From an uncultured Pelagibacteraceae bacterium (GTDB lineage Bacteria; Pseudomonadota; Alphaproteobacteria; Pelagibacterales; Pelagibacteraceae): 44,156 bases of DNA. Both the position numbers and the translations under genes were made by a program. The notes under the pieces are model-generated. The model ran no database searches, was not told the origin of the DNA, and saw only the letters and a list, made by a program, of their open reading frames with translations. Where the stretch lies: assembly GCA_902596045.1 (NCBI GenBank), contig CACJSJ010000008.1:1-44156 (forward strand), given 5' to 3'. Shown here piece by piece: positions 15,141-18,862 of the stretch (position 1 is its first letter; every line of letters begins with the position of its first letter).

Positions 15141-15686
15141 GTGAAAAAATCATATATTAGAAAAAAAATTCTTAATTTAAGAAAAAGAAACTATTCAAAA
15201 AATTTATCAATTAACTTTAAAAAATTTTTAAAATTTTTAAAAAAAAAAAATATTAGAACTAAGATTATTGGTGGTTATTATCCATTTAATTATGAATTAG
15301 ATTCTTTGAATATTTTAGAAGGTCTTGAAAAGAAGAATTATGTCATTTCTCTCCCTAAAGTTGGCAAGAACAATATAATGAATTTTTTTCAATGGTCACT
15401 TAAAGATCCGCTAAAAATTAACAAGTATGGTATTCCTGAAACAATATCTAAAAAAAAAGTTAACCCAGGGGTATTATTAGTTCCACTAGTAGCCTTTGAT
15501 AAAGAATTAAATAGACTTGGTTATGGAGGAGGCTATTACGATAGATATATATCAAAGTTACAAGACAACCATAAGATAATTAAAATAGGTGTAGGTTTTT
15601 CCTTTCAAAAAGTTAAAAGTTTACCAATAAATAAATATGATAAAAAATTAGATTTTGTGATTACAGAAAAATATTTTATTACATGA
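15141..15686 (+). CDS. 5-formyltetrahydrofolate cyclo-ligase
   Basis: A 181-residue protein of the YgfA/MTHFS family. The motifs are KIIGGYYPFNYELD near the N-terminus, LVPLVAFDKELNRLGYGGGYYDRYI (about residues 112-138, the conserved substrate and nucleotide loop) and GVGFSFQ. It converts 5-formyl-THF to methenyl-THF with ATP, recycling a folate by-product of SHMT. The start is GTG at 15141. The stop overlaps the next gene (ATGA). Confidence 0.92.
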   Translation: MKKSYIRKKILNLRKRNYSKNLSINFKKFLKFLKKKNIRTKIIGGYYPFNYELDSLNILEGLEKKNYVISLPKVGKNNIMNFFQWSLKDPLKINKYGIPETISKKKVNPGVLLVPLVAFDKELNRLGYGGGYYDRYISKLQDNHKIIKIGVGFSFQKVKSLPINKYDKKLDFVITEKYFIT

Positions 15687-16489
15687 AAATTTTATTTTTA
15701 GGAGATGTGGTTGGTGTTTCTGGATGCTCTAAAATTTTAAATTATTTAAAATCAGAAGTAGAAAAAAAAAAAATTGATTTTGTAATAGTTAATGGTGAAA
15801 ATTCAGCAGAACCAGGTGTGGGACTAACTGAAAAAACCTGTAAAGATTTTTTTAATTGTGGAGTAAATGTAATTACATCTGGCAATCATGTTTGGGATCA
15901 GAAAGAAATAATGAGTTATATTGATAAGGAAAATAGACTTTTAAGACCCTATAATCTTTTTGAACCTTCTCCTGGAAAAGGTTTTGAAATTTACAAAACA
16001 TCAAATGACATAAAAGTTGGCGTCTTAAATTTAATGGGGAATGTATTTATGAAAAAGTGTGAAGATGTATTTGAAATTGCAAAAAGATTTTTAAAAGATC
16101 ATAGTCTTAAAGAAGATTATGATTTGTTGATTGTGGATTTTCATGGGGAGATTACAAGTGAAAAAAATGCTATAGGTCATTTTTTTGATGGATGTGCAAC
16201 ATTAGTTGTAGGAACACATACTCACATACCAACAAATGATGCTCGTATTTTAAAAAATGGAACCGCTTACCAAACTGATGCAGGCATGTGTGGAGATTAT
16301 GATTCTGTAATTGGAATGAATAAAGAAAATTCGATCAACAGATTTTTTAAAGAAAATTCTAAAAAACATTTCCCAGCAATAGGAGAGGCTACCTTAAGTG
16401 GAGTAATAGTCGATTGTGATATAAAAACTGGAATGGCCAATCATGTAGAAAGTTATATTTTTGGTGGTCAATTAAAAAATACATTGTAG
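15683..16489 (+). CDS. TIGR00282/YmdB family metallophosphoesterase
   Basis: A 268-residue protein with the YmdB metal-binding motifs: MKILFLGDVVGVSG at the N-terminus, FVIVNGENSAEPGVGLTEKT, ITSGNHVWDQKEI, LIVDFHGEITSEKNAIG and VVGTHTHIPTNDARIL. The family has a di-metal centre and, in Bacillus, hydrolyses cyclic nucleotides such as 2',3'-cAMP. Its role in alphaproteobacteria is not well defined. It is conserved next to the cyclo-ligase and yebC, so it is probably co-transcribed with both. Confidence 0.93.
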   Translation: MKILFLGDVVGVSGCSKILNYLKSEVEKKKIDFVIVNGENSAEPGVGLTEKTCKDFFNCGVNVITSGNHVWDQKEIMSYIDKENRLLRPYNLFEPSPGKGFEIYKTSNDIKVGVLNLMGNVFMKKCEDVFEIAKRFLKDHSLKEDYDLLIVDFHGEITSEKNAIGHFFDGCATLVVGTHTHIPTNDARILKNGTAYQTDAGMCGDYDSVIGMNKENSINRFFKENSKKHFPAIGEATLSGVIVDCDIKTGMANHVESYIFGGQLKNTL

Positions 16490-16492
16490 ATT

Positions 16493-17218
16493 ATGGCAGG
16501 ACATTCTCACTGGGCAGGTATAAAACATAAAAAAGGTAAAGCAGATAAACAAAGATCAAAGATATTTTCGAAACTCTCAAAAGAAATTACTGTTGCTGCA
16601 AAATTAGGTGACAAAGATCCCGCAATGAATGCCAGATTGAGATCTGCAATACAAACTGCGAGGTCAGCTAACATGCCAAAAGACAACATCGAAAGAGCAA
16701 TTGATAAATCATCAGTAAATACTGGAACAAATTTTGAAAATTTAAGATATGAGGGTTTTGGCCCAGAAAATGTTGCGGTAATTGTTGAAACATTAACTGA
16801 TAACAAAAATAGAACAGCTTCGAATATTAGAACAATATTTCAAAAAGCTGGAGGCAGTCTTGGCACCCAAGGCTCAGCATCTCATAATTTTAACCAAATG
16901 GGAGTTATTAAAATTAGTAAATACGAGATCTCTGATGAGGAGATACTTGAATTAGCAATAGAGTCTGGTGCAGATGAATGTGTTTCTAAAGATGAATTTC
17001 ATGAAATACAATGTTCAGTTAATGAAATATATAATGTTAAAAAAAATCTTGAAAAGAAAATAAATAATTTTATTTCTACCGAGATTGAGTGGATATCTTT
17101 GAATAGCGTTCAAGTTTCCAAAGAACAAGAGGAAAATTTAATAGAATTTTTTGAAACATTAGAAGATAATGATGATGTGCAAAATATTTTTTCTAATGTA
17201 GAACTGAATACTAATTAA
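16493..17218 (+). CDS. yebC: YebC/PmpR family protein
   Basis: A 241-residue protein opening MAGHSHWAGIKHKKGKADKQR, the unmistakable YebC/TACO1 start, with MPKDNIERAIDK and YEGFGPENVAVIVE. Members were described as DNA-binding regulators and more recently as ribosome-associated factors that ease translation of proline runs. The second view would pair functionally with efp in this window. It overlaps the RuvC-like gene by one base (TAATG), the classical yebC-ruvC arrangement. Confidence 0.95.
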   Translation: MAGHSHWAGIKHKKGKADKQRSKIFSKLSKEITVAAKLGDKDPAMNARLRSAIQTARSANMPKDNIERAIDKSSVNTGTNFENLRYEGFGPENVAVIVETLTDNKNRTASNIRTIFQKAGGSLGTQGSASHNFNQMGVIKISKYEISDEEILELAIESGADECVSKDEFHEIQCSVNEIYNVKKNLEKKINNFISTEIEWISLNSVQVSKEQEENLIEFFETLEDNDDVQNIFSNVELNTN

Positions 17219-17712
17219 TGCTTATAATTGGAATAGACCCTGGAATATCAGGCTCAATATGTTTTTTTGAAGATGGAAAAATTTTAGATGTAGTTGAAAT
17301 GCCAACTATGACCGAAGGAAAAAAGAATAAGAGACAGGTCAATGGGGCTCAAATTTTTAATGAAATTTCAAAAAGAATTGAACGCTGTAATAAAACAGAC
17401 ATTAAAGTAATTATAGAGCAGGTTTCAGCTATGCCAGGACAAGGTGTTACTAGTATGTTCAATTTTGGTCAATCTTTTGGAATTTTAAAAGGAATGTGTT
17501 CAGCAATGCAATTACCAATGTATTTCGTGAGACCAGCTAAGTGGAAGAAATATTTTAATTTAATTAACTCAGAAAAAGACGCAAGTAGAACAAAAGCAAT
17601 AGAAATATTTCCATATTTTTCATCTAATTTAGCAAAAAAAAAGGATTCTAATAAAGCTGATGCGATTTTAATTGCTAGTTATTATTACGAAACGTTCAGA
17701 CAAGAGGAATAA
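17218..17712 (+). CDS. ruvC: RuvC-like Holliday junction resolvase (phage-type branch)
   Basis: A 164-residue RNase-H-fold endonuclease. Acidic residues fit the RuvC centre: Asp7 in IIGIDPGISGSI, Glu67 in VIIEQVSAMPGQG, and Asp148 in KADAILIASY. The residue three before Asp148 is Asn, where E. coli RuvC has a second Asp. The stretch PGQGVTSMFNFGQSFGILKG and the short length are closer to phage-type RuvC-like resolvases than to canonical cellular RuvC. It sits directly after yebC, the usual ruvC position. However, ruvA and ruvB do not follow; tolQ starts 51 bases later. It probably resolves recombination junctions. The gene symbol reflects position and fold, not proven orthology. Confidence 0.8.
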   Translation: MLIIGIDPGISGSICFFEDGKILDVVEMPTMTEGKKNKRQVNGAQIFNEISKRIERCNKTDIKVIIEQVSAMPGQGVTSMFNFGQSFGILKGMCSAMQLPMYFVRPAKWKKYFNLINSEKDASRTKAIEIFPYFSSNLAKKKDSNKADAILIASYYYETFRQEE

Positions 17713-17763
17713 CTTAAGTGAATAAGACAAATTGATGACACAATTGAGTGTAGAAGATTAATT

Positions 17764-18438
17764 ATGGAAGCAGATATATCATCTCAAGCAGTAGGTTTAG
17801 CATCTAGTGCAGATTTTTCATTAATTAATTTATTTATTCGAGCAGATATTATAGTTAAATCTGTAATAATAATATTAATTGCTTGTTCTATTTACTCGTG
17901 GGCAATTATAATTGATAAAATTAAGCAATTCAAAAAAATAAATATTTTATCTGAAGAATTTGAGGAAAAGTTCTGGAGATCAAAATCTGCTGAAACTTTT
18001 TATAATAGTTTACCTTCAAACGTTGATGATCCAATGACATCTTTATTTAAAGAGTCTATGCAAGGGTTGTTAAAATCAAAATCAAAAACTAATTTAGTTG
18101 AGAAAATGGGTGGTGTTCTTGAAGTGGGTATAGAAAAACAAATGTCTAAAATTGAAAAAGGTTTTACTTTTTTAGCAACAGTAGGATCTACCGCACCATT
18201 TATAGGATTGTTTGGAACAGTTTGGGGAATCATGAATTCATTCCAATCAATAGCTATCTCAAGAAATACAAGTTTGGCAATCGTTGCTCCTGGAATTGCT
18301 GAAGCACTGTTTGCAACTGCTCTTGGACTATTAGCAGCAATTCCTGCTGTTGTTGCATATAATAGATTTAATAATGACTCTAGAAAATATTCTCAAAAGT
18401 TAGAAAGTTTTTCGAAAAGATTTTTATCAATTATTTAG
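17764..18438 (+). CDS. tolQ: Tol-Pal motor protein TolQ
   Basis: A 224-residue inner-membrane protein with three membrane segments: one near residues 32-50 and a pair in the C-terminal half containing LATVGSTAPFIGLFGTVWGIMNSF and IAEALFATALGLLAAIPAVVAYN. These are the TolQ/ExbB signatures. With TolR it forms the proton-driven motor that powers TolA and outer-membrane constriction during division. It heads tolQ-tolR-tolA-tolB, with 7 bases to tolR. ybgC, common before tolQ, is absent. Confidence 0.95.
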   Translation: MEADISSQAVGLASSADFSLINLFIRADIIVKSVIIILIACSIYSWAIIIDKIKQFKKINILSEEFEEKFWRSKSAETFYNSLPSNVDDPMTSLFKESMQGLLKSKSKTNLVEKMGGVLEVGIEKQMSKIEKGFTFLATVGSTAPFIGLFGTVWGIMNSFQSIAISRNTSLAIVAPGIAEALFATALGLLAAIPAVVAYNRFNNDSRKYSQKLESFSKRFLSII

Positions 18439-18445
18439 TTAATAA

Positions 18446-18862
18446 ATGGCATTTAAATTAAATCGTTCAGGAAAAGAACCAATGAGCGAGATTAATGTGA
18501 CACCATTTGTAGATGTGATGTTAGTGTTGTTAATTATTTTTATGGTAACTGCTCCTTTATTAACAGTAGGAGTACAAGTCGATCTACCAGAAAGTTCAGC
18601 TGATTCACTTCCTGAAGAACAAGAGCCATTAACTTTATCGATAAATTCAAAAGGAGAAATTTTTATACAAGAGTCTAAAGTTGAATATGATAAAATTATT
18701 GCAAAAGTTTTGGCAGTCTCAAAAAACAGAACTGATACTCGAATATATGTTAGAGGAGATAAAACAATTAATTATGGAAGAGTTCTAGAAATTATGGGTC
18801 TTCTTTCAGGTTCAGGTTTTACAAAAGTAGCATTAATTTCAGAGCCATATAAAGAAAGGTAG
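18446..18862 (+). CDS. tolR: Tol-Pal motor protein TolR
   Basis: A 138-residue ExbD/TolR family protein. A short cytoplasmic N-terminus leads to MSEINVTPFVDVMLVLLIIFMVTAPL, one membrane helix carrying the conserved Asp that takes part in proton use, followed by a periplasmic domain ending GFTKVALISEP. It partners TolQ. The gene lies 7 bases after tolQ and 7 before tolA. Confidence 0.95.
   Translation: MAFKLNRSGKEPMSEINVTPFVDVMLVLLIIFMVTAPLLTVGVQVDLPESSADSLPEEQEPLTLSINSKGEIFIQESKVEYDKIIAKVLAVSKNRTDTRIYVRGDKTINYGRVLEIMGLLSGSGFTKVALISEPYKER

Follow-up and report, generated by a model that had tools for sequence, protein, structure and literature searches.

Resolvase families are reportedly the subject of a paper by Aravind, Makarova and Koonin from 2000. 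RuvAB together with RuvC or RecU is described as nearly ubiquitous in bacteria and as little subject to horizontal transfer, according to an excerpt of one survey (PMC1193525). The same excerpt gives the Firmicutes as a case in which a non-homologous resolvase, RecU, takes the role of RuvC; these bacteria retain RuvAB, and in only two of the genomes does RecU lie with it. Phage RuvC-like resolvases have no RuvB-like motor coupled to them, as an extract on jumbo phages describes (PMC7824862), and purified MOC1, a chloroplast resolvase, cuts junctions as a dimer (excerpt of PMC7078210). Given motor-free phage enzymes and a dimeric MOC1, a phage resolvase would suit a cell that is losing, or has already lost, RuvAB. 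Compared with Firmicutes RecU, the SAR11 case differs in that RuvAB is gone, the replacement lies in the ruvC slot itself, and the exchange is repeated. To judge from its genome sequences, SAR11 appears to have lost the standard RuvABC machine and to carry a predicted virus-type cutting enzyme in the old ruvC position. In the open-licence literature searched, we found no description of RuvABC loss or resolvase replacement in SAR11, nor of a recurring in-place exchange of the whole resolvasome, and the paper on HIMB59 (PMC10308909) contains no word beginning with "ruv."

The window, meaning the whole stretch of DNA analysed, comprises 44,156 nucleotides from an uncultured Pelagibacteraceae bacterium (assembly GCA_902596045.1, contig CACJSJ010000008.1). 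An earlier note made from these letters reported a 164-residue RuvC-like gene that overlaps yebC, with tolQ 51 bases on. This gene is real and sits in the canonical ruvC slot (Table 1). Its start at 17218 stands, but its end had been set at 17763, which took in the 51-base gap; the open reading frame stops at 17712. The yebC stop and the resolvase ATG overlap by one base (TAATG). We verified the neighbors YmdB, YebC, TolQ, and TolR with Pfam, and YebC and TolQ with NCBIfam as well. Neither ruvA, ruvB, nor ybgC lies between the resolvase gene and tolQ (17713–17763). The ancestral order is assumed to be ymdB-yebC-ruvC-ruvA-ruvB-ybgC-tolQRAB-pal. The order cited for alphaproteobacteria in the note, yebC-ruvC-ruvA-ruvB-ybgC-tolQ, was complete in 12 of 20 fetched RuvB-bearing alphaproteobacterial loci, with genes named by BLAST to reference proteins; one of the remaining eight has yebC-ruvC-ruvA-ruvB, and seven are without at least one of these genes in range.

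Table 1. Features of the resolvase slot and its surroundings in the window.
Feature	Position	Strand	Basis or remark
ymdB, in conserved neighborhood	15683..16489	+	Pfam PF13277, E 1.8e-94
yebC, upstream border of the slot	16493..17218	+	NCBIfam NF001030 above cut-off
MOC1/phage-type RuvC-fold Holliday junction resolvase gene (predicted)	17218..17712	+	164 aa, ATG start; canonical ruvC slot
Codon of Asp7 (NtMOC1 Asp116/ZmMOC1 Asp115)	17236..17238	+	PDB alignment; 37/37 family, 27/27 A5
Codon of Glu67 (NtMOC1 Glu175)	17416..17418	+	PDB alignment; A5 and 37 family sequences compared
Codons 72–75 (M-P-G-Q), loop equivalent to the MOC1 base-recognition loop	17431..17442	+	Alignment; loop residues from an excerpt of PMC7078210
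Codon of Asp143 (NtMOC1 Asp253/ZmMOC1 His253)	17644..17646	+	Alignment; 37/37 family
Codon of Asp148 (NtMOC1 Glu258)	17659..17661	+	Alignment; 37/37 family
51-base gap, ancestral place of ruvA, ruvB, ybgC	17713..17763	+	ORF coordinates, reference-locus order
tolQ, downstream border of the slot	17764..18438	+	NCBIfam TIGR02796 above cut-off
tolR	18446..18862	+	Pfam PF02472, E 3e-30

The window protein is a phage-type, MOC1-like resolvase and not a diverged RuvC. Its residues 1–161 align with positions 4–152 of the 158-position profile phrog_1770 (Holliday junction resolvase; E 2.4e-36), a profile that is not exclusive: of 14 control genomes, 6 have a match at E≤0.001 and none at 1e-12. In the Pfam search, the protein had no match to RuvC (PF02075) at E≤1, the RuvX family was likewise absent at that threshold, and the NCBIfam RuvC model NF000711 gave 15.1 bits versus a cut-off of 163. 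The motifs quoted in the earlier note, GIDPGISGSI among them, are found in the protein. The closest PDB entry by sequence is chloroplast MOC1 (NtMOC1, E 2.4e-13); bacterial RuvC (7w8d) reaches only E 0.6. We generated an AlphaFold2 model (pLDDT 95, pTM 0.90) from an alignment, A5, of the window protein and 26 viral proteins (n = 27). The best 12 Foldseek matches of this model are all MOC1, with TM scores by query length of 0.79–0.86, followed by RuvC at 0.58–0.69, and the VIA Z scores are 21.6–23.3 for MOC1 and at most 17.0 for RuvC. Individual MOC1 structures superpose closely (6jrf, TM 0.86; 6kvo, Z 23.3, rmsd 1.8 over 159 residues). Among phages, the epsilon15 protein is 38% identical over 84% of the protein and that of PaV-LD 48% over 58%, within a range of 28–48% among the matches listed (40 of 97).

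A tree of 67 proteins separates ten canonical RuvC from 57 phage/MOC1-type sequences with support of 100/100. The 13 SAR11 proteins form a single clade (99/98) on the phage side of this split, beyond a separating branch of 2.2 changes per site; this tree ties them firmly to no particular phage group. The enzyme shares with canonical RuvC (PF02075) its genomic slot, its RNase H-like fold, and probably its reaction. It differs in having no PF02075 match, in belonging to a separate clade, and in that RuvA and RuvB were not found. The earlier suggestion of a phage-like RuvC-type resolvase is thus upheld by profile, structure, and tree, and the tree of cellular and phage members does not cluster the protein with canonical alphaproteobacterial RuvC. 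Of the two fates that had been proposed, replacement or divergence, replacement is supported because the protein is of phage type by all three comparisons and because ruvA and ruvB were not found relocated; divergence is not. In the same tree, plant MOC1 also falls somewhere on the phage-type side of the RuvC split. This placement hints that the chloroplast resolvase may itself derive from the phage-type pool.

The active site resembles that of MOC1, with positions Asp116, Glu175, Asp/His253, Glu258 (Asp here), and Lys229 kept in the window protein; Lys120 is the residue aligned with ZmMOC1 Lys229. Three of the four MOC1 catalytic acids (D116, D118, E175, and E258) are acidic here (Asp7, Glu67, and Asp148). 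The presence of all four is ruled out, since MOC1's second acid, NtMOC1 Asp118 (ZmMOC1 Asp117), is replaced by Gly9 (catalytic set from excerpts of PMC7078210 and PMC11183143). The acid analogous to MOC1 Asp118 is missing in RuvC too, as an excerpt of PMC11183143 states. All 37 family sequences have identical active-site residues; two genomes are represented twice in this set, and the window's own copy is included. The earlier note had seen an Asn in place of one catalytic Asp. This reading fails: the Asn is residue 145, two residues past Asp143, and it is Asp143, also invariant, that occupies the site matching MOC1 Asp/His253, so no catalytic loss need be assumed and a lost catalytic Asp is ruled out. 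In the excerpted mutant data, changing D253 of NtMOC1 had no effect, and in ZmMOC1 H253A reduced cleavage and H253D kept significant activity (PMC7078210, PMC11183143). Asn145 is invariant in 37 of 37 family sequences, and this sets the SAR11 gene apart from the phrog_1770 phage genes, as does its fixation, throughout a bacterial family, at a core locus of the cell's own genome.

The loop equivalent to the MOC1 base-recognition loop departs from MOC1. Met72 stands at the position of Tyr180 and Gln75 at that of Asp183, so that neither MOC1 base-recognition residue is kept. Both replacements are invariant in the family (37/37) and in A5 (27/27, including the 26 viral proteins), and the loop reads MPGQG in 19 of the 26 viral proteins. 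With these residues in place of Tyr180 and Asp183, the cutting preference is predicted to be unlike the cytosine rule of MOC1. A further difference from MOC1 is the setting, a bacterial chromosome and its ruvC slot.

Profile searches across the order found no genome of 97 with RuvB, RuvA, or canonical RuvC (PF02075) above cut-off; among 14 named genomes used as controls, 10, 10, and 8, respectively, were above cut-off. At E≤0.001, the RuvB model does match in 96 of the 97 genomes, with at most 34.5 bits versus a cut-off of 299, and we read these weak matches as other AAA proteins. At the same threshold, the RuvA model matches in 8 of 97 genomes, over only some 30 residues. The window's own genome, 87% complete, has two narrow passes of the Pfam RuvB_N cut-off (30.6 and 27.5 bits versus 27); both are partial matches in ORFs of 556 and 424 aa, for which the full RuvB model, with its cut-off of 299, gives 27.3 and 24.3 bits. 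Relocation of ruvAB elsewhere, the outcome that the earlier note had asked about, is therefore ruled out for the order at cut-off. The recG gene, also named there, was found at E≤1e-50 in 84 of 97 order genomes: in 48 of 48 of the own family, including the window's genome, and in 36 of the 49 second-family genomes, a set with many incomplete assemblies. The curated RecG cut-off of 659.4 is reached by none of the order genomes, the best score being 656.

Of the 48 own-family genomes, 47 have a phrog_1770 match, all at E 2e-32 or lower; of the 49 second-family genomes, none has. The single miss, G040, is also without tolQ, so an assembly gap is likely. When the junction was compared across other SAR11 genomes, the resolvase gene lay between yebC and tolQ in all 37 own-family loci examined (35 genomes). 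Four of these, from three other genera, retain yebC-resolvase-ybgC-tolQ. The earlier proposal that the locus lost ruvAB-ybgC thus holds for ruvAB; ybgC is indeed absent at this locus, but its loss is a separate event from the replacement, because ybgC is still there in 4 of 37 resolvase loci. Over the order, slot synteny is kept in 50 of 50 loci, 37 with the MOC1-type gene and 13 with a PDDEXK gene. The median dN/dS over 72 pairs is 0.07, which corresponds to purifying selection. These pairs remain from 84 eligible ones (>80% identical, equal length, dS >0.05) after 12 with dS ≥2 or undefined were dropped, and dS among them is often near saturation.

The sister family, which is the second family of the order (f2), fills the slot differently. 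A tolQ locus was obtained from 13 of 14 f2 genomes searched, and in each of these the slot is occupied by a gene of about 125 aa. Three of the encoded proteins were scanned: they pass the PDDEXK_15 cut-off of 27 (PF24608; 32.7, 31.2, and 30.6 bits), match phrog_244, "RusA-like Holliday junction resolvase," at 2e-20 to 8e-20, and score 14.5, 12.8, and 16.9 bits with archaeal Hjc (PF01870), below the cut-off of 21.1. By these profile matches, the f2 occupant is a predicted PD-(D/E)XK phage-type nuclease of a family unrelated to the SAR11 resolvase.

We then surveyed the class. RuvB (E≤1e-50) is present in 257 of 289 alphaproteobacterial genomes. The 32 RuvB-less genomes include that of the window and two kin known beforehand. 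Directly after yebC, 12 of them have a phage-type nuclease, 7 canonical RuvC, and 8 an unrecognized gene; yebC was not found in the other 5. Loss of RuvB does not always bring a phage enzyme, then, given the 7 with canonical RuvC, some of them at contig ends where RuvB may be cut off, and the 8 with no recognized nuclease. The 12 phage-type cases comprise three SAR11 genomes; G213, a single genome (80% complete, 3% contamination) with another MOC1-type gene followed by ybgC and tolQ; six genomes with a nuclease of about 100 aa (G256, G126, G353, G119, G250, and G347); and two of family f51 (G145 and G269) with a nuclease of 168 aa. Two of the 100-aa proteins were scanned and match phrog_2002, "Holliday junction resolvase" (E 2.5e-10 and 2e-6). 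The one 168-aa protein scanned scores 76.6 bits with PDDEXK_15 (cut-off 27) and matches phrog_244, so that f2 and f51 both resemble phage PDDEXK_15 resolvases. Archaeal Hjc is the best structural match of the f142-type model, at a modest level (Foldseek E 0.039; Z 7.8, in the tool's middling range); the f2 proteins, unlike Hjc, fall below its Pfam cut-off.

Whole-genome searches of the 289 give a picture with less bias: all matches in RuvB-less genomes lie in the slot (phrog_1770, 4/4 at the survey threshold of E≤1e-12; phrog_2002, 3/3; phrog_244, 2/2). In RuvB-bearing genomes, phrog_1770 matches at two places outside the slot and cross-matches one canonical ruvC, and phrog_244 matches at seven places in six genomes, none with a slot-neighbor gene within 1.5 kb. 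One of the two non-slot phrog_1770 matches (G289) lies beside a serine-recombinase-like ORF; the other, in G340, has unclear surroundings. A phage-type slot nuclease thus occurs in 12 of 32 RuvB-less versus 0 of 257 RuvB-bearing genomes (Fisher test, p 4e-13, kinship ignored), where the 0 is a lower bound obtained with three profiles, one of which, phrog_2002, failed at E≤0.001 to pick up the slot genes in G119, G126, and G353.

Among named genomes scanned with the 100-aa type, 80 of 144 relatives were kept, MarineAlpha5_Bin5 and many single-cell genomes among them. All 80 have yebC immediately upstream, and 79 have tolQ downstream. The sole exception is at L486:2118–3023, where the nuclease runs into a 301-aa ORF without tolQ after it, a fusion or a rearranged contig. 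The f142-type slot gene also appears, at 98–99% identity and beside yebC and tolQ, in L480, titled Gammaproteobacteria TMED225, and L451, titled Pelagibacteraceae AG-337-I02; both record titles look wrong. In f51 (L135, which is G145, and L136, which is G269), what comes after the slot nuclease is not tolQ but a TilS-like gene and a large AAA gene (FtsH by eye), so the slot is defined there by ymdB-yebC only. Three genomes, G203 (L510), G214 (L511), and G315 (L071), have canonical RuvC directly after yebC and no RuvB at E≤1e-50; they are possible intermediates with the motor lost and the native resolvase kept, or else incomplete assemblies. In the RuvB-less genome G306 (L147; 1.5 Mb, 99% complete), about 2.2 kb, a length matching that of ruvCAB, separates yebC from ybgC, and tblastn with RuvC, RuvA, and RuvB references found no ruvCAB remnants in this interval.

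These occupants do not share one history. In the 67-protein tree, the G213 protein groups with 11 viral sequences (98/91), and a single origin of the SAR11 and G213 enzymes is ruled out (lnL difference 76.5, p-AU 1.5e-8). The viral rows of this tree were chosen by likeness to the SAR11 or G213 query, for which reason nesting alone would be weak evidence; the AU test compares trees directly. A second tree, built from the flanking genes YmdB, YebC, TolQ, TolR, and TolB (36 rows), needs at least six changes of slot state and places f51 with RuvABC-bearing genomes, away from SAR11; it has several weak branches and uneven base composition, and the f51 rows fill 39% of its columns. The f2 and f51 slot proteins are 16–23% identical. 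A single origin of the f142, f32, and f25 slot genes is weakly disfavored (p 0.016), and one of f142 together with f32 is compatible with the data (p 0.47), so we count one capture for the 100-aa group. From these comparisons, we estimate at least five putative captures at one locus: SAR11, G213, f2, f51, and the 100-aa group.

Each occupant has viral relatives, which number at least 585 for the SAR11 gene (best identity 46%), 109 for f2 (58%), 48 for the 100-aa gene (81%), 17 for f51 (67%), and 48 for G213 (53%). Slot-neighbor genes were found at 0 of 273 kept viral loci, which rules out that the viral contigs are bacterial contamination. Genes beside some of the viral relatives encode terminase subunits, exonucleases, Sak4, an SbcC-like protein, and a baseplate hub, as judged from a profile scan of ten proteins from seven loci, one of the proteins being without a match. 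Named phages with relatives of the SAR11 gene include epsilon15 and PaV-LD (97 records), with hosts such as Salmonella, cyanobacteria, and Caulobacter. For f51 there are 95 named-phage records, Pseudomonas jumbo phages first, whereas a single one matches f2 at E≤0.001, from Roseobacter phage CRP-810: its Holliday junction resolvase is 53% identical.

We think it likely that ruvCAB was lost in an ancestor of the Pelagibacteraceae/SAR11, that a phage MOC1-type resolvase working free of RuvAB and aided by RecG fills the slot, and that the same exchange took place at least five times. The ruvC-ruvA-ruvB block would have been lost in that ancestor, and a phage MOC1-type enzyme would have taken the place of ruvC, with yebC on one side and ybgC/tolQ on the other, where the operon may supply suitable expression. 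Most likely a homodimer would bind the Holliday junction and open it with the base-recognition loop. The two strands would then be cut symmetrically, with Asp7, Glu67, Asp148, and Asp143 holding metal ions and RuvAB not needed, and branch migration, where required, would be left to RecG. Alphaproteobacteria, mostly ones with small genomes, would have made an equal exchange at this locus five times or more, with two unrelated folds. Junction cleavage, independence of RuvAB, the part played by RecG, whether loss or gain came first, and capture by the host from phage are the parts that we infer. If the genomes are not incomplete, G203 and G214, with canonical RuvC and no RuvB, suggest that motor loss can come first.

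It is unlikely, in our estimate, that the slot nuclease is phage-derived but does another job, such as acting on the branched DNA of incoming phages or in fork processing, with junctions left to RecG together with RuvX/YqgF or to a topoisomerase plus a helicase. RecG is present, YqgF-like ORFs occur in four of four family genomes looked at by eye, and the slot genes are of phage type, all as this account would have it. Yet every occupant family, across two unrelated folds, is named a Holliday junction resolvase in PHROGs (an annotation, not an assay), and the occupants stand where the RuvABC resolvase was. The near-universal presence in the family (47/48 genomes) and the purifying selection are also unlike typical variable defense genes. 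The breadth of MOC1-type genes in phages of Salmonella, cyanobacteria, Caulobacter, and other hosts (97 records), with at least 585 viral relatives, makes it very improbable that bacteria held the resolvases first and phages took them; the 289 alphaproteobacteria have only four slot cases, two non-slot places, and one RuvC cross-match (E≤1e-12). Direction cannot be read from trees alone, though, and the f142 Hjc-like gene is up to 79–81% identical to viral copies, so that this particular exchange may be recent and could have run either way. Least probable of all is a native alphaproteobacterial ruvC that diverged after ruvAB loss, for despite the exact ruvC slot, the retained RNase H-like fold, and a nonexclusive phrog_1770 (6 of 14 control genomes at E≤0.001) that matches even the canonical RuvC of a small-genome lineage (E 4.5e-13), the 100/100 split puts the SAR11 proteins with the phage and MOC1 sequences, across a branch of 2.2 changes per site, the window protein passes the cut-off of neither PF02075 nor NCBIfam RuvC where a PF02075 score of 139 bits is reached by RuvC of the 1.4 Mb genome G104, and the sister-family slot holds a nuclease whose family is unrelated and which divergence of ruvC cannot give.

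Replacement by a phage MOC1-type resolvase, the reading that we prefer, involves parts of known kinds; what reaches wider than the window is that a core recombination slot is refilled repeatedly with phage-type enzymes. Somewhat more guardedly, we favor the view that the yebC-tol junction is a seat of resolvase exchange, where at least five lineages traded RuvABC for one small, motor-free phage resolvase of either of two folds, with RecG left, and that MOC1 is the eukaryotic parallel drawn from the same phage-type pool. SAR11 bacteria recombine much and have a small gene set. If the preferred reading is true, a very abundant group of ocean bacteria completes recombination without RuvABC, which bears on its high recombination, and the lineages constitute a natural replicated experiment on the need of a resolvase for the RuvAB motor. 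They would also show clearly that a core operon can take up phage genes repeatedly and, in SAR11, would provide relatives of chloroplast MOC1 in free-living bacteria, with a base-recognition loop of another kind.

A YqgF/RuvX-like ORF, named by eye, lies beside a pyrB-like ORF in the four family genomes looked at (L505–L508), with a gatA-like ORF also adjacent in L505. It explains the second, weak phrog_1770 matches in four family genomes and is a possible second resolvase. Among the SAR11 core genes, an excerpt of PMC3686209 names a "Putative Holliday junction resolvase," which may be the slot gene or RuvX.
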